A stretch of DNA of 64,000 nucleotides, taken from positions 248,001 to 312,000 of the forward strand of contig NZ_QOCL01000009.1 of NCBI RefSeq assembly GCF_004006665.1, in the 5' to 3' direction. Made by a program: the position numbers and the translations under genes. Shown here piece after piece: positions 12,134 through 40,362 of the stretch. This DNA comes from Halobacteriovorax sp. HLS. GTDB taxonomy: Bacteria > Bdellovibrionota > Bacteriovoracia > Bacteriovoracales > Bacteriovoracaceae. Below the pieces are notes generated by a model. The model saw nothing but the letters and a program-made list of their open reading frames with translations, was not told the origin of the DNA and searched no databases. Every line of letters begins with the position of its first letter. Position 1 is the stretch's first letter.

Positions 12134-12175
12134 TTCCCCTAAAATCATATGGATTTGGTTTTAGGGGAACTTTTT
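12134..12175 (+). terminator. Rho-independent terminator
   Basis: An 11-base stem, TTCCCCTAAAA (12134-12144) with TTTTAGGGGAA (12159-12169), is followed by C and five T's. It serves the plus-strand gene ending at 12102 and abuts the stop codon of the convergent urocanase gene. Confidence 0.85.
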
Positions 12176-14168
12176 ACAATAAGTTTTCGTCTACAAGGTT
12201 TGGAATTGTAACATTTAAAAGAGGCTCTTTTTCCATTGCTCTCTTTATCGCAAAAGTTGCGCCTTCGTTTCTTGCCCAGCTTCTTCTGTTTATTCCGTTA
12301 TTAACATCCCAAAAGAGCATTGATTTTATTCTACGGTCACAATCTTCACTGCCATCTAGAACCATACCAAATCCACCATTCACAACTTCTCCCCAGCCAA
12401 CACCACCTCCATTGTGTAGTGAAATCCAAGTGGCCCCTCTAAAAGAGTCGCCTACAAAGTTTTGAACGGCCATATCTGCTGTGAAGCTTGAACCATCATA
12501 AATATTAGAAGTTTCTCTATACGGTGAATCTGTTCCCGAAACATCGTGATGATCTCTACCTAGAACTATTGGGGCTTTGATCAATCCATCTCTTATGGCC
12601 TTGTTAAATGCCAGTGCGATTTCAATTCTACCGTCACTGTCGGCATAGAGTATTCTTGCTTGCGAGCCTACTACAAGTTTATTTTCTCTCGCACCTTCAA
12701 TCCAAGTAATATTATCACTCATCTGTTGTTGAATCTCTTTTGGAGATTCTTTCATAAGTTTTGTAAGAACATCTTTAGCGATTAAATCAGTAGTATCTAA
12801 ATCTTCACTAAGTGAACTAGTACAAACCCATCTAAAAGGTCCAAATCCATAATCAAAGCACATCGGTCCCATGATATCCTGAACATAACTAGGATATTTA
12901 AATTCTCCATCTTCTTTTAAGATATCCGCACCCGCTCTTGATGCCTCAAGTAGAAAAGCATTTCCATAATCAAAGAAGTACATTCCTTTCGCTGCTAGCT
13001 CATTTACAGCACTCACATGTCTTCTTAATGTTTGTTGTACTTTTTCTTTAAATAGCTCAGGATCTTTTGCCATGAGTTCATTTGATTCTTCAAGGGTGAG
13101 GTCCGCTGGGTAATATCCTCCGGCCCAAGGATTGTGTAGAGAAGTTTGATCTGAACCAAGCTCTACATGGATATTTTCGCTATTTAATCTTTCCCATAGA
13201 TTAACGATATTACCTTGATAGGCAATTGAAACAACTTCTTTCTTTTCCTTGGCCTCTTTTACTCTTGGTATTAGTTTATCTAAGTCTTCGTAGACTTCAT
13301 CTACCCAACCTTGCTCGTGTCTCGTCTTTACGGCCATTGGATTAATTTCTGCTACTAACCCAATACATCCTGCAATGACAGCTGCCTTTGGTTGAGCTCC
13401 ACTCATACCACCAAGCCCCGCTGTAACAAAGAGTTTACCAGCTAAGTCGGTCTTACCATTACTTATCTTTCTTCCAGCGTTTAAGACGGTTATTGTTGTT
13501 CCGTGAACGATTCCTTGTGGACCAATATACATAAATGATCCGGCCGTCATCTGACCATATTGAGTAACACCAAGAGCATTAAACTTTTCCCAATCATCTG
13601 GTTTAGAGTAATTTGGAATCATCATTCCGTTTGTTACGACAACTCTAGGAGCGTCTTTATGAGAAGGGAATAAACCTGCCGGATGTCCAGAGTAAAGGGC
13701 CAGTGTTTGCTCATCTGTCATAGTTGCTAGATATTTCATCGTTAGCAAGTATTGGGCCCAGTTACTAAAGACAGCACCGTTACCACCATAAGTAATAAGT
13801 TCATGGGGATGTTGAGCAACAGCGTAATCTAAATTATTTGAAAGCATAAGCATAATCGCTGCCGCTTGCTTTGATTTATGTGGATAGTCCTCAATACTTC
13901 GTGCAAAAATTTTATAATCAGGACGAAACCGATACATATAGATTCTTCCATAAGTCTCAAGCTCTTCTCTAAATTCTGGAGCAAGTTCTTTATGAAACTT
14001 TGTATCGAAGTAGCGTAAGGCATTCTTTAGAGCGAGTTTCTTTTCTTTCTCATTTAAAATTTGTTTTCTATTTGGAGCATGATTAATAGATTGATCATAT
14101 TCTTTCTTAGGAGGAAGTTCTGATGGTATTCCTTGTAAAATAGTTTCTTTAAACTGTTGAGAGTTCAT
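12174..14168 (-). CDS. hutU: Urocanate hydratase
   Basis: Urocanase converts urocanate to 4-imidazolone-5-propionate in histidine breakdown, using tightly bound NAD as electrophile. The protein is 664 residues, the long type, versus about 555 for the common bacterial type. Diagnostic stretches include SGHPAGLFPSHKDAPR, VTNGMMIPNY, GPQGIVHGTT, the NAD-site segment AGLGGMSGAQP, the segment FGFGPFRWVCTSS, and GRDHHDVSGTDSPYRET. It is transcribed alone: no hutH, hutI, hutG or hut regulator lies in this window, so the remaining pathway must be elsewhere. The ATG has AAAGGA upstream. Confidence 0.96.
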   Translation of the reverse strand: MNSQQFKETILQGIPSELPPKKEYDQSINHAPNRKQILNEKEKKLALKNALRYFDTKFHKELAPEFREELETYGRIYMYRFRPDYKIFARSIEDYPHKSKQAAAIMLMLSNNLDYAVAQHPHELITYGGNGAVFSNWAQYLLTMKYLATMTDEQTLALYSGHPAGLFPSHKDAPRVVVTNGMMIPNYSKPDDWEKFNALGVTQYGQMTAGSFMYIGPQGIVHGTTITVLNAGRKISNGKTDLAGKLFVTAGLGGMSGAQPKAAVIAGCIGLVAEINPMAVKTRHEQGWVDEVYEDLDKLIPRVKEAKEKKEVVSIAYQGNIVNLWERLNSENIHVELGSDQTSLHNPWAGGYYPADLTLEESNELMAKDPELFKEKVQQTLRRHVSAVNELAAKGMYFFDYGNAFLLEASRAGADILKEDGEFKYPSYVQDIMGPMCFDYGFGPFRWVCTSSLSEDLDTTDLIAKDVLTKLMKESPKEIQQQMSDNITWIEGARENKLVVGSQARILYADSDGRIEIALAFNKAIRDGLIKAPIVLGRDHHDVSGTDSPYRETSNIYDGSSFTADMAVQNFVGDSFRGATWISLHNGGGVGWGEVVNGGFGMVLDGSEDCDRRIKSMLFWDVNNGINRRSWARNEGATFAIKRAMEKEPLLNVTIPNLVDENLL

Positions 14169-27925: not shown

Positions 27926-28852
27926 ATGAAAGAACATCACCACCATAGTCATCATGACCACAACGACCATCATCATCACCACCATAATATTAAAGGTAGT
28001 AAGAATATTCTCATTGCCTTTGCTTTGAATTTCTCTTTTTCAATTATCGAGTTTATTGGTGGATACTTAACTAATAGTATGGCGATTTACGCGGACGCTC
28101 TCCACGATCTTGGAGATAGTAGTGCTCTACTTATGGCGTACTTTTTAGAAAAGTTCTCAAAAAAATCTGCTGATGAAGTTTACACATATGGGTATAGAAG
28201 ATTTTCAGTTCTGAGTGCTCTAATTAATGCAATGATTCTTCTTATTGGATCCTTATTTGTAATCAAAGAATCTGTAGAGAGACTTTTGAGTCCAGAGCCA
28301 GTGAATAACGAAGGCATGCTCTATTTGGCAATACTTGGAGTCATTGTAAATGGAATCGCTGCGTATAGGTTATCAAAAGATGAGGGGATAAATCAGCGAA
28401 TGGTAATGCTTCACTTATTGGAAGATATTCTAGGATGGGTTGCTGTCTTAATAGTTAGTGTCGTTCTATTTTTTAAACCATGGTTTATTCTCGATTCAAT
28501 TCTTTCAATTTTAATTTCACTATTAGTTCTCAGAGGTGTTTACTTTGGACTAAAGAAGGTAGTCTCAATTCTAATGCAGGCCTTTCCAAAAGGAGTAAAT
28601 TCCCAAAAAGTCACTCAAGAGCTACTCAAAATTGATGGGGTTCTAGGAATTCACTATATTCAAGGTTGGTCTATGGATGAGGAGTCTCACTCTCTCACTT
28701 TTCACGTTTCAGTCTCGGAAGATATGAAGGTTCGCGAACTTGATGAGATGAAATTAAAGATCAAGGCAAAGCTATATGATTTATCTGTCAAAAACTCAGT
28801 AATAGAGTTTGAAGGCCGTCATCATGATTGTAGTGAACATACCAAGCTGTAG
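27926..28852 (+). CDS. Cation diffusion facilitator (CDF) metal exporter, His-rich N-terminus
   Basis: 308 residues, six membrane helices and a cytoplasmic C-terminal domain. The first 20 residues contain 13 histidines in runs (including a six-His run), a likely Zn/Co/Ni-sensing or -loading tail. Helix 2 carries AIYADALHDLGDSSALL, the HxxxD transport site typical of zinc-type CDFs; a second ligand pair appears in HLLEDILGW. The C-terminal domain has GVLGIHYIQGWSM and ends in a His-rich GRHHDCSEH. The likely substrate is zinc. Confidence 0.95.
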   Translation: MKEHHHHSHHDHNDHHHHHHNIKGSKNILIAFALNFSFSIIEFIGGYLTNSMAIYADALHDLGDSSALLMAYFLEKFSKKSADEVYTYGYRRFSVLSALINAMILLIGSLFVIKESVERLLSPEPVNNEGMLYLAILGVIVNGIAAYRLSKDEGINQRMVMLHLLEDILGWVAVLIVSVVLFFKPWFILDSILSILISLLVLRGVYFGLKKVVSILMQAFPKGVNSQKVTQELLKIDGVLGIHYIQGWSMDEESHSLTFHVSVSEDMKVRELDEMKLKIKAKLYDLSVKNSVIEFEGRHHDCSEHTKL

Positions 28853-29158: not shown

Positions 29159-29214
29159 TTTCCAAATTGAACCAACTCAAATAACCTCTCCTTACTAATT
29201 TTTACGAGGTGAAT

Positions 29215-29847
29215 ATGTCTAAATTACAAAGTATTTTTGAGTCCAATAAGAATTGGTCAGCTGATATCAAAAAAGAAGATCCAACATTCTTCGAAAGGTT
29301 ATCTAATCAACAAGCTCCTAAATATCTATGGATTGGTTGCTCTGATAGTCGAGTTCCTGCAACGCAATTGTGTGGACTTGATGCAGGTGAAATTTTTGTT
29401 CATCGTAATATCGCCAACCTTGTTATCAATACGGACTTTAACTGCTTGTCAGTTATTCAATATGCCGTCGAGGTTCTTAAAGTTACAGATATAATCGTTT
29501 GCGGACATTACGGATGTGGTGGAGTTGCAGCTGCACTTTCTAATCAATCTCTTGGGCTAATTGATAACTGGATTAGAAATATAAAGGACGTCTACCATCT
29601 TCATAGAGAGGAAATGGTTAAATATGTAAAAGGCTCGGAAGAAGAGTGTAATAGGTTAACTGAATTGAATGTCTCAAACCAAGTCTATAATCTGGCCAAT
29701 ACTACTATTGTTCAAAATGCTTGGAAGCGTTCTCAAGAACTTAATCTTCATGGAGTAGTTTATAGCTTAAAAGATGGTATTCTTAAAGATCAAGGAATTT
29801 GCCTTAGCTCAGATAAAGATATCGAAGAAGTTTTTAAACTGTCTTAA
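29215..29847 (+). CDS. can: Beta-class carbonic anhydrase
   Basis: 210 residues from ATG 29215 (GAGG 5 bases upstream; an in-frame GTG at 29209 overlaps the Shine-Dalgarno). It interconverts CO2 and bicarbonate. Zinc ligands sit exactly where E. coli Can has them: C42 with the D44/R46 dyad in GCSDSRVP, then H98 and C101 in CGHYGCGG. Ends before a bidirectional terminator. Bicarbonate supply for carboxylation is the usual role. Confidence 0.96.
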   Translation: MSKLQSIFESNKNWSADIKKEDPTFFERLSNQQAPKYLWIGCSDSRVPATQLCGLDAGEIFVHRNIANLVINTDFNCLSVIQYAVEVLKVTDIIVCGHYGCGGVAAALSNQSLGLIDNWIRNIKDVYHLHREEMVKYVKGSEEECNRLTELNVSNQVYNLANTTIVQNAWKRSQELNLHGVVYSLKDGILKDQGICLSSDKDIEEVFKLS

Positions 29848-29852
29848 AATTA

Positions 29853-29873
29853 AGGGGCCTAATTATGGCCCCT
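29853..29873. terminator. Bidirectional terminator between can and the 29.9-36.6 kb operon
   Basis: AGGGGCC (29853-29859) and GGCCCCT (29867-29873) with a 7-base loop sit between convergent genes. Flanking A/T runs are modest on both sides. Confidence 0.7.
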
Positions 29874-29883
29874 CTTGCATCGT

Positions 29884-32556
29884 TTAATCGAGAAACTCAA
29901 TCAAACCAGTTTCTCCGTTCATTCTTATTTTATCACCTGTTTTGATTTTCTCAGTAAGACCTTTAACGCTAACAATGGTCGGTATCCCCATCTCTCTAGC
30001 AACAATGGCCGAGTGAGATAGCAGGCCTCCACGTTCAACAAGTAAGGCCTTTGCTGACGGGAATAGTGGTACCCAACCTGGGTCAGTTCTCATAGTTACT
30101 AGAATTTCTCCATTTAATGATAGATCGTCGTCGGGATTAAGAATAATTTTCGCAACCCCTTCAATCACACCTGCGCAACATGGAATACCTTTTAGGCAAC
30201 CCTCTGGAACATCTGATAGGTCAATCTCTTCTTCAGGTGGAAGGTGGTTGTTTTGCCAGTAGACTGGACCTCTTGTGTGAAACCTTGGCGCTGGTTCAAT
30301 CTCCAAGAATCGTTCATATTCCTTTCTTCTTAATTCAACTAAGGCCTTAAAATCGAGTACCGTACAAAATCCTTCAACAGATCCTAATAGTTCTGGTAGT
30401 GTGAGATAGAAGATATCTTCATCTTTTAAAATGATACCTCTATTTGCGTAATTTGCTCCAATTGCATAGAACATTTTTCTGACGATACCATAGACTCGTG
30501 TCCTACAGAATCTGGTGTTCTCTCTATTTCTAACGGCCTTTCTCGCATGATTGAGTGACCATGAAAATATTAGTTTTTTTATTCCACTAACAGCTCCAAA
30601 GGCCTTAGTTTCTGCTTCATTTCTAACTTTTTTCTCTCTTGCTTCTAGCTCTTCAATAGAAGGAATCTCATTATTAAGATGGTTTTTAATAAAGGTAAAC
30701 AGAGAGTGTGGGTTGTGAGTCAAATCACGCTGTTCCAGTTTCATCTCACTCATACACCTAAAGCCGTACTTATCAATATAGGTTTCGATCTCATTATAGA
30801 ACGAATCAAATGAAGACTGTCTTAGTGTTTCATGTAGATCGGTACTTGGAGTATTAAGAATAAGATCTTTTAACTCCTTATCAGAGTCCACAATGCGAGC
30901 GAGGCGTATCACTTCTCTAGTAGGAAGTGCTGATTCGAGATTTCCATCCCCACAGAGTAGATCATTTTGAAATCCATCCCCAAATTGAGGCATCCATTTA
31001 GAAACAAGTTTCTTTAGAAGTCCAAAATGAATCATACAAAGATAGTCATTGATAATTGGGGCCTTCCAATTTGCCAGAAATCTTCTTTCCAGTTCGTAGT
31101 ATGTGTCAATGATCTCATTGGGAGTTTTACTATTGAAATCAATGTGTCGAAATTTCTCATATTCAATATAGAAATAATCCATAAATCCGTCGACGAGCTT
31201 TTGAGCAGTGAGATGAAAGTAGAAGAACTTCATTCCCGTCATGAATCTTCTTACTTTAGAAGAAAACTTCTCTTCAAAAGCAGGAGGTTTTATTCGATCA
31301 GCAATTTCATCTGCAAGAGAGTCGTTTGTCCCCATCATGGTTTCCATGAATGAACGATTATACTTAAATCCGGGAAGTATACTGGTGAGCTTATACCAAT
31401 TTAAAATATTATAATATATTCTTCCATAGAAGCTACCGAGCATATTTCTTAGAAAATAATCCATTTCCTTAATTCTCTTAGGTGAAACCATTAGAATCTC
31501 ACAAAATTGAACATAGACGTGATGGTAGACATGTCTTGCAAAATCAGTTGTGAGAGGAGCAGTTAGCCCTCCATAACTTTCTACAATATTTGAATTATCC
31601 CAGATATAGAGAGTTCCTTCTCCATTTAAGATAGGAGTTGTAACTGGCCTTGCTTGAAGAATATAGAGCTGTCCGTCCTTTATCGCCCATTCAATATCTT
31701 GTGGAAAGTGATAAGATCGCTCTATGGCGGAGGTCTCTTTTATTAAGTTTTTAAGCTGATCGTCAGTTAAGCTTGAAATTGATTTTTGTTCATCATCAAG
31801 AGCAACAACTTTACATGTTTGATTCTCAACATCCTGAACCATCTTACTTTCTTTATCAGCAATTTCCTTCTCTGTTATTTCATAGCTTAGTTTATTGACC
31901 GTATATGTATCAGCTTCTAGTAAACCTGATACGAGACCTTCTCCTACACCAAAAACAGCGTTAACCATTGAAACTTCACTAGATCCCTTTATAGGGTCAC
32001 AAGTAAATGTTACACCGGACACATCGGGGTCAATCATCTCTTGAAAAATTACCGCCACATCAATGATCTTAATATCAAGCTTGTTTTGAAGCCGATAACT
32101 GATACCTCTTTCACTGTATGCACTTGCCCAGCACTGTTTAAGTGCTTCAATGGCCTTAGCTTCTGTTTGAATATATAGGTAACTTGATAGCTGACCTGCA
32201 AACGAAAACTCTGCGCTATCTTCACCGATAGCTGATGAACGAATCGCGATGAGTTTACAATCAAGATCTTTGTAGGCCTTCTTCGCTAGAGTTATCACTT
32301 CTTGAGAAAGTTGTGCATCGACAATTAGTTTTGAGATCGCTTCATGTATCTCTTTAGGTGATTTATTTTGTGAGACAATATCATCAATCTTTTCCTGGAC
32401 TCCATTTTCATCAATAAACTTTCTAAATACAGAGCTAGACAGTATCTGAAACCTAGGAACATTGAAGCCGGCCTTACTTAAATGATAAAGATTAAGTCCC
32501 TTTCCTCCTGCATACTTATTAGCATAGAAAAGTGTAGTGTCTTTTGTGATAATCAT
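29884..32556 (-). CDS. PEP-synthase-like phosphotransferase (rifampin-phosphotransferase architecture)
   Basis: 890 residues. Order: ATP-grasp domain (about 1-310; GGKGLNLYHLSKAGF and IRSSAIGEDSAEFSFAGQ), a helical middle part (about 320-790), and a swivelling phospho-histidine domain at the end with GGLLSHSAIVAREMGIP, catalytic H848. It lacks the TIM-barrel pyruvate/PEP domain of PpsA and PpdK, so it should phosphorylate some other acceptor using ATP (giving AMP and phosphate), as rifampin phosphotransferase does. Last gene of a coupled operon (ATGA overlap with the UbiA-like gene), so the acceptor is probably an intermediate of that pathway rather than a drug. The substrate is unknown. Confidence 0.85.
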   Translation of the reverse strand: MIITKDTTLFYANKYAGGKGLNLYHLSKAGFNVPRFQILSSSVFRKFIDENGVQEKIDDIVSQNKSPKEIHEAISKLIVDAQLSQEVITLAKKAYKDLDCKLIAIRSSAIGEDSAEFSFAGQLSSYLYIQTEAKAIEALKQCWASAYSERGISYRLQNKLDIKIIDVAVIFQEMIDPDVSGVTFTCDPIKGSSEVSMVNAVFGVGEGLVSGLLEADTYTVNKLSYEITEKEIADKESKMVQDVENQTCKVVALDDEQKSISSLTDDQLKNLIKETSAIERSYHFPQDIEWAIKDGQLYILQARPVTTPILNGEGTLYIWDNSNIVESYGGLTAPLTTDFARHVYHHVYVQFCEILMVSPKRIKEMDYFLRNMLGSFYGRIYYNILNWYKLTSILPGFKYNRSFMETMMGTNDSLADEIADRIKPPAFEEKFSSKVRRFMTGMKFFYFHLTAQKLVDGFMDYFYIEYEKFRHIDFNSKTPNEIIDTYYELERRFLANWKAPIINDYLCMIHFGLLKKLVSKWMPQFGDGFQNDLLCGDGNLESALPTREVIRLARIVDSDKELKDLILNTPSTDLHETLRQSSFDSFYNEIETYIDKYGFRCMSEMKLEQRDLTHNPHSLFTFIKNHLNNEIPSIEELEAREKKVRNEAETKAFGAVSGIKKLIFSWSLNHARKAVRNRENTRFCRTRVYGIVRKMFYAIGANYANRGIILKDEDIFYLTLPELLGSVEGFCTVLDFKALVELRRKEYERFLEIEPAPRFHTRGPVYWQNNHLPPEEEIDLSDVPEGCLKGIPCCAGVIEGVAKIILNPDDDLSLNGEILVTMRTDPGWVPLFPSAKALLVERGGLLSHSAIVAREMGIPTIVSVKGLTEKIKTGDKIRMNGETGLIEFLD

Positions 32557-33443
32557 AGTAGTAAACCTGTTTGAGTTTCAATGATAAAAAATATATAAAA
32601 AAGTATTATGTAAATAGATGAGAAAATACGATAGAGCTTTCCAAATTTCTTAGCATCAGTAACTGCAAATAATATTCCTGCCAGAAATAGAACTAAAGTT
32701 AAAATAGACTGCAGTATTGAAATTGATCCAAACACTCCCCTTAAAGCAAGTAGTGAAAAGAGCGACATGGAGACCACTAAGATTACAGCTCCAAATCTTG
32801 TAAATATTTTTGAGTACGATTCAACAGCGTTTCTCTCTTCTTCTGTAGTAAATGTCTTGCGACCAAACTCAAATATATTAAAGACAAACCAGCTACATAG
32901 AACAAAGTATAAGTATTTTTGATTCAGCTCTCTTGGATCCATTGATGTAGCGGCAGTAAAAATAGCTATTCCCATAGGAATTGTAACAACAGTATGCAAT
33001 AGGGCATAGGTTGTGAGGTGTGGGCGAATGAGTTTGGGTATAAAGAACTCTTTATACATTAGTAGAGAGTAACAAATTGCAAAGATCATCATCATGATTG
33101 CATTGAGACGAAGCGGTAGAAATAGTGCTATCTCAAAGAATATACATACAACTATGCCCTTGTGCATATCTTTCACTTCTAATAGACCTCTTGGAAGAGG
33201 TCTGTCTGGATTAATCTGACAGTCTAAATCGTAATCTTTTATTTCGTCATAGAGACGCATTTTATAAAAGAAGAAAAAGATAGCAATCAAAGTTAGAAAT
33301 GAATTAAAGATGCTAAAGTCGTTTTTGAGATGAATGCTAAGTGATAAGTGAGCACCAACAAAGAGGATGATCATCAGAGAATGATCGAGTAGTGGAAACC
33401 TTTCTTTTGTAAATGTCATCCATCGTTGAGCTTTACTAGTCAT
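32553..33443 (-). CDS. UbiA-family prenyltransferase-like membrane protein
   Basis: 296 residues, eight to nine hydrophobic helices. The first Asp-rich motif is DEIKDYDLD (66-74) followed by INPDRPLPRG, the pattern seen in chlorophyll-synthase and digeranylgeranylglyceryl-phosphate-synthase relatives; the usual Asn before the first Asp is absent. A second motif is less clear: a DAKKFGKLYR stretch near residue 265. UbiA enzymes move a prenyl group from a diphosphate to an aromatic ring, sugar phosphate or lipid. It overlaps both neighbours (1 base upstream, 4 bases downstream), so it belongs to the operon. The acceptor is not known. Confidence 0.82.
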   Translation of the reverse strand: MTSKAQRWMTFTKERFPLLDHSLMIILFVGAHLSLSIHLKNDFSIFNSFLTLIAIFFFFYKMRLYDEIKDYDLDCQINPDRPLPRGLLEVKDMHKGIVVCIFFEIALFLPLRLNAIMMMIFAICYSLLMYKEFFIPKLIRPHLTTYALLHTVVTIPMGIAIFTAATSMDPRELNQKYLYFVLCSWFVFNIFEFGRKTFTTEEERNAVESYSKIFTRFGAVILVVSMSLFSLLALRGVFGSISILQSILTLVLFLAGILFAVTDAKKFGKLYRIFSSIYIILFYIFFIIETQTGLLL

Positions 33444-35839
33444 TAGATAAGTCCCTTACTCTTTAAATCTTTTCTAAGGATATCGTATTCTACTTTTGAG
33501 TGATGTCTCGCATCCATAGGAATATCAGAGAAAATGATAACTTTATCTACGATGATGGAGTTCTTTTTCATTATTCTTTCAATTTCAGAAATCATTTGAG
33601 AGTCAGTAAGTGAATTTTCTTCTCTAGGAGCAACTACACAGACAGTCTTTTCTCCAAGTTCTTGATCTTCAACTCCAAGGTAGGCACAATACTTTGTAAA
33701 AGGAAGCTTCTTTAAAACTATCTCTGCTCTTACTGGAAAGAGATACTGCTCACTTCTAATGATCGCATTATGCACACGACCAACAAGCCAAAGGTTCTTT
33801 TGATCATCAAGTTTTCCAAGATCTCCTGTTCTGTGCCAAACAATTCCATTATGATCTAAAATCTTTGCTCTTGAGAAGGCCTCTTCATTATTGTAGTAAT
33901 CTCTACAAACATGTTCTCCTGAGACGATAAGTTCTCCTACTTCTCCATCCTTAAGGGTGATCGATTCAAAGTCACTATCTGAGTTTACGCTTACTGTTCC
34001 TTTTGAGATTTTTATAAATTTATACTGTAGACCACCATCAAGGTGACCAACGTTAACACCTTCGTCAACTAACTCTGGGTCATCTTCAGTCACTGATTTT
34101 ATTTCAATCATCTCTTTTGCCGAAATGTGAGCAATGGGTTCAACTTCTGTAGAACCATAGAGAACAAGAATCTCTGCATTTGGAGCAACTTTGGTGAAGT
34201 CTACGATATTATCTCTTGAAACAGGAGCTCCTCCTGTAACAACTCTTTTAAGTTCAGGCATCGTAATGCCATTATCTAAGCAATGCTTCGAAAGAGAATT
34301 GAATATTGAAGGTGATAGTGTTGTACATGTTACGTTGCACGCTTTAAATTGAGCAAGGAGAATAATAGGTGTTTCCTTGGTTGGAGCGCCGACATCAAAA
34401 GATGGAATAACAGTCGCAACACCTTCAGCTAGGTTATTCAGTGAGAAGATAGGAAAAACAGGAAGATCTACATCGCTATCAACATATGGTAGACCTCTGT
34501 GAAGAGCATAGTGTTGTGCTGCTAGAAAGCGATGAGTTCTATTTGCTCCTTTTGGCGTTCCGGAACTTCCGGTGGTAAAAGTTATAAGGGCCGTTTCTTC
34601 TTGCTCCATAGGGCAAATAGGAACTTCACCTTCTGATTGCATTAGCTTCTCTATAGAGGAATCAAAGCTTCCCGTATGTTCTCCAACTACGATCTTTAAG
34701 GGCATATTGTCAAAAATATCTGCGCCGCTACATAGATCAAAGGCCTGTTGGAAGCTGATCATACACTTTGGGTCTGCAACTTCTGCTGAAACTCCAAGTT
34801 GATCTCGTCGTGCCCAGCTATCTAGAAAGGTCGGAATTGCACCGATCTTTTGGAGAGCAAACATTGAAGCATAGAGATATAGTGACATTGGAACAAAGAG
34901 AATGACTCTGTCGCCTTTTTGAATTCCAAGATCACTAAAGCCTTTGGCTATCTTATTTGAAAAGTGATAGAGCTCCGCAACAGAGACAGATTTATGCTCT
35001 AATTGATCTTCTACTTTGAAGCTCCATGATCCAATTGTTTCTCGGTCTACCCATTTTAAAATAGGCCGTGTTGGAAATTTTTCTAGATGATCAACGATGA
35101 ATGAGTAAACGTTATTGCCGGCATGACACCCGTCATAGTAACCCAACTTCTTTGTCATAGTAGACTCCGTACTTTTTCCTATATATTCATTAATTAATTT
35201 TGAAACCTCATGTGCGTTTGTCCAAGTAAGAGCATGTCCTGCACCAGCAATAGTTTCAACTTTCAGCGTCTTAATATTTCTTTCTAGTGGAGAGACTTGC
35301 TCATTGTAATCAGAGGTCTTATCTTCGCTCCCATAAATGATGAGAACAGGGCATTCGATATTATATTCTGATGAAAACTCACTCTCAATTAGATGCACTT
35401 TTTCAAAAATTGACTTCTTTAAAATCTTATAATCTGAGAGGTAGTCGCTTTGTGCTTGATAATCTTTTGGAACCTCTAGGGGAGAAGTACTGTCTTTAAT
35501 AAATTTTTCAATTGCTTTAGGACCAATCCTTTTGAGTAGAGCACTACCTAGAATTGGTGTCGCGAGCAAGAGGTTTTTTAAAGTCGAAACATTCGAGTTA
35601 AAAAGAAATGGAGAAATTAATATTATTTTTTCTACTTGCTCAGAGTTTCTTTGATAAAAGTCAAATAATTCTTTAGAGCCCCAAGAGTAAGCCAGTAGAA
35701 TCAATTTCTCATCTACTATCTTTGGTTGTGGACTCTGATTATATCTATCTATATGTATAAACTCACCATCAATGTAGGACTCTAGTTGCTTGAAGTCTGC
35801 TGGTCCTCCGGGAGAGCCATGAAAGGTTATAAATTTCAT
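33443..35839 (-). CDS. Alpha/beta-hydrolase fused to an OleC-like acyl-adenylating enzyme
   Basis: 798 residues, two domains. Residues 1-222 are an alpha/beta hydrolase: HGSPGG oxyanion loop, nucleophile S52 in AYSWGS, acid D173 in YGSEDK, H202 in GAGHALTW. Residues 228-798 are an ANL adenylating enzyme: A3 motif FTTGSSGTPKG (421-431), A5 YGSTEVEP, A7/A8 WHRTGDLG and LVGRVHN, and a C-terminal lysine K782 in DARHHSK, a segment close to OleC beta-lactone synthetases (consensus DxRHNAK). OleBC fusions of olefin pathways use an OleB with Asp as nucleophile; here it is Ser, so this is not a typical OleBC. No OleA or OleD is near. The Met at 228 could be a second start. Part of the operon (ATGA and TAATG overlaps). 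Confidence 0.85.
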   Translation of the reverse strand: MKFITFHGSPGGPADFKQLESYIDGEFIHIDRYNQSPQPKIVDEKLILLAYSWGSKELFDFYQRNSEQVEKIILISPFLFNSNVSTLKNLLLATPILGSALLKRIGPKAIEKFIKDSTSPLEVPKDYQAQSDYLSDYKILKKSIFEKVHLIESEFSSEYNIECPVLIIYGSEDKTSDYNEQVSPLERNIKTLKVETIAGAGHALTWTNAHEVSKLINEYIGKSTESTMTKKLGYYDGCHAGNNVYSFIVDHLEKFPTRPILKWVDRETIGSWSFKVEDQLEHKSVSVAELYHFSNKIAKGFSDLGIQKGDRVILFVPMSLYLYASMFALQKIGAIPTFLDSWARRDQLGVSAEVADPKCMISFQQAFDLCSGADIFDNMPLKIVVGEHTGSFDSSIEKLMQSEGEVPICPMEQEETALITFTTGSSGTPKGANRTHRFLAAQHYALHRGLPYVDSDVDLPVFPIFSLNNLAEGVATVIPSFDVGAPTKETPIILLAQFKACNVTCTTLSPSIFNSLSKHCLDNGITMPELKRVVTGGAPVSRDNIVDFTKVAPNAEILVLYGSTEVEPIAHISAKEMIEIKSVTEDDPELVDEGVNVGHLDGGLQYKFIKISKGTVSVNSDSDFESITLKDGEVGELIVSGEHVCRDYYNNEEAFSRAKILDHNGIVWHRTGDLGKLDDQKNLWLVGRVHNAIIRSEQYLFPVRAEIVLKKLPFTKYCAYLGVEDQELGEKTVCVVAPREENSLTDSQMISEIERIMKKNSIIVDKVIIFSDIPMDARHHSKVEYDILRKDLKSKGLI

Positions 35840-36588
35840 AATACCATTCCATTTTTTTTCATTACTTTTACCTGTTTCCTAGAAGGGTTTTTAGTATAGA
35901 TTTTTTCATCTGTTTTATTTATCGTTCCACAAGGAAATTTCTCTTGTTGCGAAATTTTGCTTAATAAGCTTGCTAGTTCTCGTCCTTCCTGTGCTGCTCC
36001 TAATTCTAGGTAGTCTATATAGTCTTTATGCTCACCATTACTGACGCTAACCGTTTTAAAAATCATTCCATCATCAATCTTTCTATTCATTTGATGTATG
36101 GTAAAACCGGCCTCTCTATTCTCTGATAAAGCATAGAGATCGCACATCGTTCCCCTGTACTTTGGCAAAATGCCGTGGTGGATATTAATACAACCAAGGG
36201 AAGGAGTTTTTAGAATTTCCTTTTTGTATATACATCTGGTTCTAACATTAACGATGACATCTACTGCCTTTTCTTGACACCACTCAATTGCGACTTTGTC
36301 ATTCATTGATTTAAATGTTTGAACCTCAATCCCTCTTTTTTCAAAGAGATTTTGTCTTGATCTTTTTGGGAGATTGATAATATTTTTAAGTAGCGTTCTT
36401 TGCACTTTATTTGCGCCTAAGTAAGAAAGGCCAGCGACTGATTTTAATAAAGAAGTATCTAGGTTTTTTAGAAGAACTAGGCCGACGACTTTAACATCTT
36501 GTGAGTGTTTAAAGAACTCGACGAATAAGTCTAGATAGTTTCTTGGTATATAAGTTATTTGTGAAGTCACAAATATAACTCTGATCAT
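35836..36588 (-). CDS. Formyltransferase-like protein (Fmt N-terminal fold)
   Basis: 250 residues, first gene of the operon. The formyltransferase fold is recognised by NIHHGILPKYRG (135-146) and KIDDGMI (170-176), giving the catalytic Asn-His-Asp trio as N135, H137 and D172. It is shorter than methionyl-tRNA formyltransferase (about 310) and lacks the C-terminal OB-like tRNA domain, so it more likely transfers a formyl group from 10-formyl-THF to an amine on a small molecule or sugar. In some residues it is divergent (H138 follows directly where many sugar formyltransferases have a small residue). ATGA overlap with the next gene. Confidence 0.82.
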   Translation of the reverse strand: MIRVIFVTSQITYIPRNYLDLFVEFFKHSQDVKVVGLVLLKNLDTSLLKSVAGLSYLGANKVQRTLLKNIINLPKRSRQNLFEKRGIEVQTFKSMNDKVAIEWCQEKAVDVIVNVRTRCIYKKEILKTPSLGCINIHHGILPKYRGTMCDLYALSENREAGFTIHQMNRKIDDGMIFKTVSVSNGEHKDYIDYLELGAAQEGRELASLLSKISQQEKFPCGTINKTDEKIYTKNPSRKQVKVMKKNGMVL

Positions 36589-36745
36589 GTTGGGCCTTGG
36601 TAATGTCGTTTGGAAATGTATCGGATATGTAAGAGAAATAGTTTAGTATTTTATTCAGTTATTTTTTATAACTCATTGATTTTATATTCTTCTTAGAGTC
36701 TTTTATAGTGTCCAATTCAATATCTAATGCCTATAATTGAGCTTC

Positions 36746-38074
36746 ATGAATTTTGAACTTTCAAAGCTGCTGAAGCTTAGCCTTCCTATTTTTCTTGCTC
36801 AACTGGGCGTTGTCCTACTTGGTGTTACTGATATGATCATGTTGGGACAGTTTGATGAGCTATCACTCAAAGCTTCTGGAATTGCAAATGTCTGGGTTAT
36901 TGGAACGCTGATGTTTGGAATAGGTTGTTGTCTTGGTGTAGATCCCTTTATTGCAAAATTCATAGGCCAGCAGAATTCTCTAGAGGTAAAGAAGGCCCTT
37001 ATTAGTGGCAAGTTTGTCGCCATATTAATTGCCTTAGTACTAAGTACTCTATGGTTATGTACTGGGGATGTTTTAGAATTCTTTGGTCAATCAGATGTGT
37101 ATACGAAGCTTGCTCATGACTATGCTTTGGTTCAAATACCAAGTCTCATTCCATTTTTTATGTATATGGTTTTTAGACAGTATTTAATCGGCCACGAAAA
37201 GGCTTCAGTCGTTGCCATCGTTTTACTTTTGACAAATTTTGTAAATGTAATTCTTAATTGGATTTTTATTTATGGAGCTGGACCAATTGAGGCAATGGGT
37301 CTATTTGGTGCAGGTCTTTCTACTTGTATCATGAGAGCATGCCAGTATCTCTTTTTATGTTTGCTGATTGGTCTTTCGAAAAGAGATAAGCACTTATGGG
37401 TCCCATTTTCATGGCAACTTGTGGATTGGGTACTAGTTAAGAATATTCTTCTTATTGGTCTCCCAATTGGCCTAAGCTTTATGCTAGAGGCCTTTGGTTT
37501 ACAGTTAACAACTTTTCTTGCTTCGAGGATTGGCGATAACGAATTAGCTGCTCATAGTATACTTGTGAATTTACAGTATCTCTTCTTTTCTATTCCAATG
37601 GCCATTTCAATTGCCGCGGCGATAAGGATAGGAATTACTCTTGGTCAAAGAAAGGAAGTACTAAATGTTATTAGAGCAAGTTTTATTGCTATAACTTTTC
37701 TTGTCACACCTTTTTGCCTCATTCTTTATTTTTTAAATCAAAGTATTGTTGAGCTCTATGGTGTTAGTGGCATGATTAAATCTTTGGCCAACTCTTCAAT
37801 TATTGGAGCTGCGCTATTTTTATATCTCTATAGTTTACAACAAGTAATGGGGGCTTTATTAAGAGGTCGAGGCAGAACTTTTTGGCCATCTATAGTTAAT
37901 ATATCTTCGCTATATTTAGTAGGACTGCCAATCGCTTATTACCTTTCCATGAAGTTAAGTTATGGCCTAAGTGGCCTTTGGTATGGACTGAGTGGGAGTA
38001 TGTTTGTTTGTTGTCTTGGGCTAGGTCTTCTGAACCTTAATTCGTATAAGGCCCAGAAGAATCAATTAAGCTAG
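36746..38074 (+). CDS. MATE-family multidrug/metabolite exporter
   Basis: About 442 residues from ATG 36746 (an in-frame TTG at 36737 is unlikely). Twelve hydrophobic helices arranged as two MatE repeats; the N-terminal repeat starts SLPIFLAQLGVVLLGVTDMIMLGQ, the family hallmark, and the second repeat begins IGLPIGLSFMLEAFGLQ. MATE proteins export cationic compounds using Na+ or H+. It is divergent from the biosynthetic operon over 157 bases, so export of that pathway's product is possible but unproved. Its stop overlaps the RND gene by 4 bases. Confidence 0.93.
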   Translation: MNFELSKLLKLSLPIFLAQLGVVLLGVTDMIMLGQFDELSLKASGIANVWVIGTLMFGIGCCLGVDPFIAKFIGQQNSLEVKKALISGKFVAILIALVLSTLWLCTGDVLEFFGQSDVYTKLAHDYALVQIPSLIPFFMYMVFRQYLIGHEKASVVAIVLLLTNFVNVILNWIFIYGAGPIEAMGLFGAGLSTCIMRACQYLFLCLLIGLSKRDKHLWVPFSWQLVDWVLVKNILLIGLPIGLSFMLEAFGLQLTTFLASRIGDNELAAHSILVNLQYLFFSIPMAISIAAAIRIGITLGQRKEVLNVIRASFIAITFLVTPFCLILYFLNQSIVELYGVSGMIKSLANSSIIGAALFLYLYSLQQVMGALLRGRGRTFWPSIVNISSLYLVGLPIAYYLSMKLSYGLSGLWYGLSGSMFVCCLGLGLLNLNSYKAQKNQLS

Positions 38075-40362
38075 ACTTTCTTTTTTTCTAGAAGTAATAG
38101 AGCGGGGAGGAAAATCAGATCTATCACTAGCGCGACAGTAAGCACTATGGCAGTAAGAAGTCCAAAGTTTGAATTTGGAGTAAAGTCTGCAAAGATCATC
38201 GCTCCAAATCCAACAACGAGTATGGCCGTAGTCCAAAAAAGGGCAGCCCCAGTAGTTCCTAAAACATAAATAAGCGAGTCTTTATTACTCATTCCTTTAT
38301 TCTTACAAAGGTTATAAGTCGTCAGAAAGTGAATCGTATCATCTACAACAATACCTAAACAAACAGAGCTTACAAGAGCAGTTCCGACATCAATCGGTCG
38401 ATGAAGAAATGTCATTATTCCTGCTCCAATTGCCAGTGGAATAATGTTTGGAATCATTGATAAGAGACCAAGCTTAATTGAACCAAATACAATGACTAAG
38501 AGAATAGATATTCCTATAAGGGCCATTGTTATTGATGAGAAAAATGATTTAACTACAAAAGTAGTCATATTTTGATAAATTGGTATTTTACCTGTTACAA
38601 CTGCTTTAAGTCCAAAGTCCTTGGCCTTATCTTCCATCATGGCCATTCTTTGTAAGGATAGTTTAGATCCTTGAGTAGTCCAAAGAACTGCCATTCTTAG
38701 TGCATCTCTATTTATTGTCATTCTATCATTGAGATCCTTTCCTTGAGGGAGACTCATTTCGTAGAGAAATAGAAGCTCTGCAATGGTTTTCCTACTATCT
38801 GGAATGGAGTAGAATTCTTCTTTGTCTCCATGGAAGGACTTATTCATGGATTTTACAATTTCAACTATTGAAGTAACCCTTGAGATATATTCCTTATCTT
38901 CTAACCATCTCTGATATCTATCAACACTTTGTAAGAATTTTGGATCTTTGATTCCATCTTTTACACCAGACTCTATCACCAATTGAGGGCCATAAAATCC
39001 ACCGAGATTTTCAAGTGTAAAATTATTTGATTTAGTAAGTGGGACTTGTTCAGAAAAGTAATCATAAGGATTAGAGTTTACTTCATTTTTAGATCCGTAA
39101 TAGATAAAGACAGCACTAAGCATAATGGTCCCAAAGACAATGTGCTTCTTATACTTATCAACAAGTGTGACGATTTTTGTTGCTACAGCAAAAGTGTTTT
39201 GATCTTCTGTCTTTTCTGCCTTCTTATCCCATTTTACATCTTTCAAACTAAGCACTGGGCAAATGATAAGCATCGTATAAAGCCAAGCAAACATTGTTCC
39301 AAAGGCGGCGAGAATACCCATGTCTCTTAATGGTATAAGATCAGAAGTGGTGCAACTGAGAAATCCTATTGCTGTCGAAATACTTGTTAGCAGGGTAGGT
39401 TTAATATTCTTTTCAAAAGCACTTCTTGTTGCATCAACATTTGATTCACCAAGAGATCGAAATTGAAAGTAACTCACAAGTACATGAACACTATCTGCAA
39501 TTGCAATAGCGATTAGAATTGTAGGAACCATAGCAATGAGATTATTAAATTTTATTCCTAGATAACCAGCAAAACCAAAAGTTGATAAAGTTGTTACAAC
39601 GATAATTACAATTGGAAGAATGAGACCAATTACTCTTTTGAAGGTGTAGAGTAAGAAAATAAAAATGAGAAGCATGACAATCGGAAAGATTGTCACAATA
39701 TCATGCTCAGAAACTTCTCTAAATGTATTATTTATATCCAATGAACCATTGATATAGAACTCGTGTTTATCGTCTTTTGGAAGTCTCTCTTTGATCTTTT
39801 TAATGAGTTCTCTAGTTTTTTCAATTATTAATTTATCATCTGGAGCACCTACAAAGTAGGGTTTAATTTTTGCGTAAATATTTGTAACGGTGGCCTTTCT
39901 ATTAATGAGATAGTCTGGCAAAGTCTTATCAGCGAGGGCCAACTTCCTTTTTTGCAAGAGAAGTTCTTGGTCATATTCTTCTGGAATAAAGTCTTCAATG
40001 GTAAGATCATCTTCTACAGCTGTGGTCCACTGGTAGTTTGTAATAGAGTCTACACTTATAACATCTGGAACTAGCCATAATTGGTCTGTCGCCTCTTTGA
40101 TAATTTCAATTGTTTGTGTATCAAAGATACCATCTGGTGAGTGAATAATTATATTTACTAAGTCATCATTGCCAAATTTTGCTTGGAAATCATCATAGAG
40201 TTTTAGAAGTGGTTCAGAATCTCGAAACCATATACGATAACTAAAGTCAGACTTTACTAGAGTCAGGCCAGGTAGAAGAGTGGCCATAATGGCAAGCGCA
40301 ACAATCATGCTGGTCCACGGCCTAGAAATAAGAAGTTGCGTTAGTCTCTTTGAGAAATTCAA
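38071..40362 (-). CDS. RND-superfamily exporter of the MMPL/HAE3 type
   Basis: 763 residues with the RND layout: helix 1, a large periplasmic domain (about 35-215), helices 2-6, a second periplasmic domain (about 420-610), helices 8-12. Helix-4-like segments carry the polar residues of the family: AIADSVHVLVSY and the repeat's GIVVDDTIHFLTTYN. The two-halved form with no adapter or outer-membrane gene nearby resembles HAE3 / hopanoid or lipid transporters (HpnN-like). Likely role: lipid or hydrophobic-compound transport across the inner membrane. Only the family is certain. Convergent with the MATE gene. Confidence 0.92.
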   Translation of the reverse strand: MNFSKRLTQLLISRPWTSMIVALAIMATLLPGLTLVKSDFSYRIWFRDSEPLLKLYDDFQAKFGNDDLVNIIIHSPDGIFDTQTIEIIKEATDQLWLVPDVISVDSITNYQWTTAVEDDLTIEDFIPEEYDQELLLQKRKLALADKTLPDYLINRKATVTNIYAKIKPYFVGAPDDKLIIEKTRELIKKIKERLPKDDKHEFYINGSLDINNTFREVSEHDIVTIFPIVMLLIFIFLLYTFKRVIGLILPIVIIVVTTLSTFGFAGYLGIKFNNLIAMVPTILIAIAIADSVHVLVSYFQFRSLGESNVDATRSAFEKNIKPTLLTSISTAIGFLSCTTSDLIPLRDMGILAAFGTMFAWLYTMLIICPVLSLKDVKWDKKAEKTEDQNTFAVATKIVTLVDKYKKHIVFGTIMLSAVFIYYGSKNEVNSNPYDYFSEQVPLTKSNNFTLENLGGFYGPQLVIESGVKDGIKDPKFLQSVDRYQRWLEDKEYISRVTSIVEIVKSMNKSFHGDKEEFYSIPDSRKTIAELLFLYEMSLPQGKDLNDRMTINRDALRMAVLWTTQGSKLSLQRMAMMEDKAKDFGLKAVVTGKIPIYQNMTTFVVKSFFSSITMALIGISILLVIVFGSIKLGLLSMIPNIIPLAIGAGIMTFLHRPIDVGTALVSSVCLGIVVDDTIHFLTTYNLCKNKGMSNKDSLIYVLGTTGAALFWTTAILVVGFGAMIFADFTPNSNFGLLTAIVLTVALVIDLIFLPALLLLEKKKV

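Follow-up and report, generated by a model that had tools for sequence, protein, structure and literature searches.

A conserved four-gene operon of Halobacteriovorax, possibly the core half of a pathway to a fatty-acid-derived amino-lipid of the cell envelope

The enzymes closest to those of the locus reported here belong to several separately described systems. Rifampin phosphotransferase Rph couples an ATP-grasp domain, a middle substrate domain and a C-terminal swinging histidine without a phosphoenolpyruvate (PEP) domain, and the prodiginine (PigC, RedH, PigE) and tambjamine (TamQ, TamH) systems contain ATP-driven ligases and PigE-type thioester reductases. Archaeal digeranylgeranylglyceryl phosphate (DGGGP) synthase (6m31/7bpu) is a UbiA-superfamily enzyme with a first Asp motif and an RPLPxG sequence, and the sugar N-formyltransferases and the formylation domain of LgrA consist of a Formyl_trans_N domain with an Asn-His-Asp triad. 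Betaine-lipid (DGTS) synthesis has in BtaA a DUF3419 protein beside lipid enzymes, and in OleBC a hydrolase precedes an OleC-branch ANL domain, OleB being a haloalkane-dehalogenase-type enzyme with an aspartate nucleophile. Relatives of these enzymes meet in a gene set whose core is a four-gene operon at positions 29884–36588 of a 64,000-nucleotide stretch (the window) of Halobacteriovorax sp. HLS (NZ_QOCL01000009.1, positions 248,001–312,000; contig C9 of the 3.84 Mb genome, G000). We give about even chances to the reading that this operon forms the core half of a pathway dedicated to an amino-lipid that derives from a fatty acid and ends up in the cell envelope, with the outer membrane as the probable site. 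That the product is a lipid, which the initial annotation of this DNA had considered plausible beside a small molecule, is in our view quite probable.

The operon comprises four open reading frames on the minus strand. The first gene (35836–36588) encodes an N10-formyltetrahydrofolate-type formyltransferase of 250 amino acids (FT), the second (33443–35839) a serine α/β-hydrolase (residues ~1–225) fused to an ANL acyl/aminoacyl-adenylating domain (~270–798), the third (32553–33443) a UbiA-superfamily membrane transferase of 296 amino acids (UbiA) and the fourth (29884–32556) an 890-residue protein (PPS) in which ATP-grasp (PPDK_N), middle and phospho-histidine (PEP-utilizers) domains follow each other in a Rph/PigC-type layout. 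On the coding strand, FT overlaps hydrolase::ANL by 4 bases (ATTATGAAA), hydrolase::ANL overlaps UbiA by 1 base (TAATG, CTAATGACT) and UbiA overlaps PPS by 4 bases (ACTATGATT), which confirms the coordinates and overlaps first annotated and supports the proposal that the four are made together as one expression unit. Pfam and NCBIfam agree with the families named there, the Pfam matches of all four proteins exceeding the Pfam cut-offs. The catalytic residues are intact in the window's copy and invariant among its relatives, the second Asp motif of UbiA being the exception.

FT scores 53.9 bits against Formyl_trans_N (cut-off 26.1), and its triad N135/H137/D172 is complete and invariant across 13 sequences; by profile, it is nearest to Fmt, the sugar N-formyltransferases, ArnA and LgrA. 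Unlike the sugar N-formyltransferases and LgrA, FT has an N-terminal part of its own and is replaced in sister clusters by a GNAT-type N-acyltransferase, and no sugar-nucleotide genes were recognized beside it. The fusion protein matches Hydrolase_4 with 37 bits and AMP-binding with 139.3 bits. Its hydrolase part has an invariant catalytic set S52/D173/H202 with the nucleophile elbow G/A-Y-S-W/F-G and may serve in editing or deformylation, and its ANL part keeps the P-loop and an invariant C-terminal K782; in L043, L158 and L162–L164, hydrolase and ANL are two separate genes. The label OleC-like, given to the fusion in the initial annotation, holds insofar as the ANL domain belongs to the wider PRK09274/OleC branch, its closest NCBIfam groups, and fails at the level of OleC itself: the curated OleC families are matched with 246 bits (cut-off 850) and 217 bits (cut-off 900). 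The hydrolase is likewise not OleB, as its nucleophile is the serine S52, with D173 and H202, and not a haloalkane-dehalogenase-type aspartate.

UbiA (Pfam UbiA, 40.8 bits; cut-off 34.2) retains the first Asp-rich motif (R63..D66 E67 K69 D70 D74, in which D66/D70/D74 are invariant). The second Asp-rich motif is gone, and E192-R195-K196, with E203, stands there instead. An AlphaFold2 model (pLDDT 92.3) has DGGGP synthase 6m31 as its best Foldseek match, and the archaeal synthases are the nearest solved relatives, at a remote distance (profile 29.6 bits, TM-score ~0.65): they share the first Asp motif and RPLPxG, and differ in having a true second Asp motif in place of E-x2-RK and in being supplied by isoprenoid rather than fatty-chain genes. 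The fold and the first motif of a prenyltransferase stand, the second motif is lost, and the prenyl transfer once assigned to UbiA is putative. The membrane phosphoribosyltransferase 8j8j, whose motif 2 looks similar, was rejected as a close relative (E 0.06, TM 0.52, no profile match). PPS matches PPDK_N (269.6 bits) and PEP-utilizers (81.7 bits) and has an invariant swinging histidine, H848, in GGLLSHSAIVARE; the swinging histidine is a feature of PEP synthases, but a PEP/pyruvate-binding domain (PEP-utilizers_C) was not found by Pfam. PPS scores 314 bits against PEP synthase TIGR01418 (cut-off 740) and passes only the uncharacterized group PRK06241.2-2 (999.9 bits; cut-off 883). It aligns over its full length and in one stretch with RedH (400.7 bits; cut-off 1350) and PigC (384.2 bits; cut-off 1300); with Rph it shares the domain architecture described above, but its middle domain is not matched in one stretch (366 bits; cut-off 999).

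To assess conservation of the operon, the UbiA protein was used as query against 59 related genomes, and 18-kb stretches surrounding the matches were inspected. The gene content and order of the operon recur in all five species of the genus and in ten further genera, one of them in another family (G056). A profile search of the phylum then found UbiA relatives in 151 of 369 genomes and 61 of 182 genera, and 36 more neighbourhoods were read. UbiA and PPS are paired at nearly all loci, and FT, hydrolase, ANL, UbiA and PPS occur together at 28 loci, so this grouping is not a matter of chance. The gene order is therefore conserved across genera, as the initial annotation had asked, but not in company with the MATE and MMPL transporters that it put forward as exporters. 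The MATE gene (36737–38074, plus strand; Pfam), a divergent neighbour, and the MMPL/RND gene (HAE3, HpnN-like; 38071–40362, minus strand; Pfam and NCBIfam) stand next to the operon in G000 and G002 alone, the genus's three other species lacking this neighbourhood, and we dropped them as conserved exporters. The role of conserved export partner falls to ABC/FtsX/LolA-like genes, and MMPL could be a local substitute in the window's genome. The genomes G154 and G155, taken to be Bdellovibrio bacteriovorus HD100 and strain W, carry the set in its FT type (L154) and its GNAT type (L152), respectively, each with DAGK, SDR, AAR, LolA, BtaA, FtsX and ABC genes (see below) within ~25 kb of the core; in HD100, the UbiA, PPS, AAR and DUF3419 genes lie at ~3.062–3.084 Mb. 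Outside the phylum, an alphaproteobacterial plasmid of Roseinatronobacter sp. S2 (L117, NZ_CP121116.1) has the six genes UbiA-PPS-DUF3419-kinase-like-GNAT-ANL, of which the kinase-like one encodes a membrane protein without a Pfam match that looks, by eye, similar to CTP-dependent phytol/dolichol kinases. No second plasmid with such a cluster emerged when plasmids were searched with other L117 genes.

The four genes had been annotated as a whole unit, and the operon is indeed one, but it holds only half of the pathway. In many relatives, a second operon lies divergent beside the core and encodes a YegS/diacylglycerol-kinase (DAGK)-type lipid kinase, a NAD_binding_4 short-chain dehydrogenase/reductase (SDR), an acyl-thioester reductase (AAR) and a DUF3419/BtaA-like protein. 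In the window's genus this operon is unlinked to the core, also in the window's own genome, where it stands on another contig (L107:7677–12819; G000:C3 ~475.7–480.8 kb), out of sight of the initial annotation. L162 and L163, from another family, join both halves with export genes in a single 13-gene operon, DAGK-SDR-AAR-BtaA-FT-hydrolase-ANL-UbiA-PPS-ABC-FtsX-LolA-OM395, the OM395-type proteins having a weak match only, to outer-membrane DUF1302. Across the phylum (369 genomes), UbiA is present in 106 of the 111 genomes that carry AAR (Fisher p ~5e-49, a value that ignores shared ancestry). Three of the five exceptions (G011, G068, G337) are drafts of 84–86% completeness, G353 is a weak match, and G027 carries its PPS and AAR matches on short contigs of 4.8 and 3.8 kb. 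A TPMT-type methyltransferase gene was also seen divergent beside the partner operon of L107, and near the cluster in several relatives.

The AAR protein has 680 residues, and its C-terminal half is an acyl-thioester reductase: its model matches the cyanobacterial acyl-ACP (acyl carrier protein) reductase 6jzu (E 8.5e-19) and the N-terminal domain of PigE 4ppm (E 6.4e-38), with a conserved CxAET site in which the active-site cysteine is kept (CLAET, C616). PigE is reported to reduce a thioester (PMC8341465). The equivalog level of acyl-ACP reductase TIGR04058 is not reached (57–62 bits; cut-off 449.7). Residues 1–310 of AAR fall in no Pfam family, and stand-alone paralogues of this part occur in other genomes (L115:7592–8545, L116:7887–8843). 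Against OleD (cut-off 580), the SDR of the partner operon reaches 48 and 46 bits. The DUF3419 proteins score 95 bits (L040) and 189 bits (L117) over a cut-off of 28.2, and no solved relative was found for them. The setting beside lipid enzymes is that of BtaA in DGTS synthesis, from which the cluster differs by its N-formyl-/N-acyltransferase and adenylating enzyme, and a BtaB methylase was not recognized in the cluster.

Two types of core can be told apart: 28 of 59 loci have FT and hydrolase, 25 have GNAT and none has both, FT always occurring with the hydrolase and P450 genes being confined to GNAT-type loci. Distances in the UbiA and PPS trees are correlated with r = 0.84, which includes species history. 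In L151 and L152, both from one genus, the cores have diverged (UbiA 29% and PPS 42% identical) between constant flanks (two upstream genes 75%/69%, BtaA 72%, LolA 73% and AAR 77% identical). To judge from these identities, the whole core is exchanged in place as a block (L151/L154 versus L152), which argues that both core types are equivalent in their work and that AAR, DUF3419 and LolA-like proteins act in the same pathway. ANL and UbiA share a single reading frame in four GNAT-type loci (L046:8477–10963, L170:9335–11599, L171:9216–11645 and L180:9187–11469), suggesting direct hand-over between the two. BtaA is never found without ANL (30 of 30 loci). Beside the UbiA, PPS and ANL genes of L045 (5009–7354) and L169 (3367–5784), we found a fusion of a 3-hydroxy-3-methylglutaryl (HMG)-CoA reductase to an APH-type kinase.

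Gene set, linkage, co-occurrence, catalytic residues and the fold of AAR were read directly, and from these we infer a route of eight steps. AAR would reduce acyl-ACP to a long-chain aldehyde (step 1) and SDR would turn this into an alcohol (step 2), reductions that we hold somewhat more probable than the scheme as a whole. The YegS/DAGK-type kinase would then phosphorylate a lipid hydroxyl (step 3); an alcohol phosphate is suggested by the HMG-CoA-reductase::APH fusions of L045 and L169, which combine thioester-to-alcohol reduction with a kinase domain, and by the phytol/dolichol-kinase-like protein of L117. The DUF3419/BtaA-like enzyme would add a 3-amino-3-carboxypropyl group from S-adenosylmethionine, creating an α-amino-acid head (step 4), whose amine FT would formylate or, in the sister type, GNAT would acylate (step 5). 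With the amine blocked, ANL would adenylate the carboxylate, and the fused serine hydrolase would edit or remove the block (step 6). This head-group scheme, supported by BtaA never being without ANL and by the absence of both from L179, L181 and L183, is tentative and in our view less likely than not. PPS, as a phospho-histidine enzyme, would activate a partner, either through phosphoryl transfer or in an ATP-driven condensation, before UbiA makes the final bond in the membrane (step 7); UbiA and PPS may thus finish the product as a closely linked pair. ABC/FtsX/LolA-like proteins, in the window's genome perhaps MMPL, would carry the product outward (step 8). The most likely product would accordingly be a lipid built from a fatty acid, with an amino-acid head that is N-formylated (or N-acylated), and destined for the outer membrane.

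Several observations weigh against this amino-lipid pathway. The cluster is known here from its genes, from which product and chemistry are proposed, and the co-occurrence counts ignore phylogeny. DUF3419 is assigned at family level, with BtaA activity and acceptor assumed. FT plus hydrolase and GNAT form a single split in the UbiA tree as well as in the PPS tree, which makes their mutual exclusivity one historical event; many independent FT-to-GNAT swaps are contradicted by the same trees. Within L178–L183, divergent UbiA and PPS occur without ANL or BtaA, accompanied by GNAT in L178, L179, L181 and L183, so the core either can work without steps 4–6 or does something else there. Three of these loci (L179, L181, L183) encode long proteins with an AAR-like C-terminus, by Pfam an aminotransferase-III::AAR in L181 that is reminiscent of PigE/TamH, and the four loci possibly represent a kindred pathway that involves a fatty amine. 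Finally, the stretches read span ~18 kb, and clusters without BtaA nearby may carry it elsewhere.

Among the alternatives, a fatty-acid-based ether lipid fares best, although we think it unlikely. AAR, SDR, DAGK and PPS would then make an alkyl or 2-alkenyl (di)phosphate from which UbiA forms an ether in the manner of DGGGP synthase, its closest solved relative by profile and fold; the near-constant pairing of UbiA with PPS and the recurrence of kinases of different families beside them (DAGK, APH fused to HMG-CoA reductase, CTP-kinase-like) would fit. A saturated alkyl diphosphate is, however, unable to ionize as an allylic one does, the motif 2 that holds the diphosphate metal is lost, and 15–18% identity and a TM-score of ~0.65 to DGGGP synthase do not fix the substrate. 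In a bolder form, UbiA would have turned from isoprenoids to fatty-acid-derived chains and would join an activated alkyl (or 2-alkenyl) phosphate, supplied by AAR, SDR, kinase and PPS, to the N-formylated amino-acid head made by the BtaA-like enzyme. The resulting outer-membrane lipids would form a new class, spread among predatory and related Bdellovibrionota, a combination that we consider improbable. The full-length homology of PPS to RedH/PigC could point instead to an alkaloid-type product of the prodiginine/tambjamine sort: AAR would provide an aldehyde, PPS would act as a PigC/TamQ-type ATP-driven ligase that condenses it with another partner of non-lipid nature, and UbiA would decorate the product. 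AAR is closest to the reductase domain of PigE, with the same cysteine, the aminotransferase::AAR protein of L181 resembles PigE, and plasmid clusters with PigE-like proteins hold a PPS-like gene too. Scores far below the PigC and RedH cut-offs, pyrrole-making genes (prolyl ligase, peptidyl carrier protein, oxidase) recognized at no locus, with lipid kinase, DUF3419, UbiA, FT and LolA-like genes in their place, and the poor fit of the lipid kinase, DUF3419 and LolA-like partners make this distinctly unlikely. A true isoprenoid prenylation, with UbiA placing a polyprenyl chain on a quinone- or amino-acid-like head that the other enzymes decorate, could invoke the UbiA superfamily itself, the HMG-CoA-reductase-like partner of L045 and L169 and the CTP-kinase-like partner of L117, but the genome has two further UbiA-family genes of more canonical type (166 and 108 bits) and most clusters bring a fatty acyl reductase rather than isoprenoid genes, and we rate it no higher than improbable. 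An olefin/β-lactone (Ole) pathway is suggested by the hydrolase::ANL order, as in known OleBC fusions (PMC7064751), and by the OleC branch of ANL, and is dismissed on the OleC, OleB and OleD features above and the lack of matching partners; no OleA thiolase was seen in the clusters, no genome-wide OleA search having been made. Ordinary gluconeogenesis by a PEP synthase among unrelated neighbours, in line with the automatic name of NF004881, is equally far-fetched given the missing PEP/pyruvate domain and low TIGR01418 score of PPS, its pairing with UbiA across many genera and a separate PPDK-length match in the genome (G000:C4, 904-aa frame).

Around the operon, the convergent ends of the PPS gene and a carbonic anhydrase gene (29209–29847) leave a 36-base gap, in which direct reading of the sequence revealed a perfect 7-bp G+C-rich hairpin, AGGGGCC-TAATTAT-GGCCCCT (29853–29873, no strand assigned), that the consensus scan did not list and that is a possible two-way terminator. 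The carbonic anhydrase gene and a cation-efflux gene (27926–28852), both downstream of the operon, are apparently unrelated to it, and a urocanase gene for histidine breakdown (12174–14168) is ordinary. A promoter scan gave a result at chance level.

The initial annotation knew of no pathway that combines these families, and our search, confined to a limited range of libraries and open papers, found no such cluster described; in the same open literature we found no report that links DUF3419 with UbiA or names the gene set, and its novelty as a previously unnamed set is upheld. According to Muller et al. 2011 (as cited in PMC7529429), Bdellovibrio-type predators have unique membrane lipids, and in the genome-scale model of HD100, lipid and peptidoglycan reactions are over-represented among dead ends and the envelope part is called incomplete (PMC7529429). 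The set is widespread in Bdellovibrionota, as the UbiA profile indicates, occurs in the model predator HD100 and reaches, with a relative on a plasmid, into the Alphaproteobacteria. It offers a direct, testable handle and would give a function to branches of the UbiA, PPS/PigC and DUF3419 families that now bear misleading or empty automatic names.

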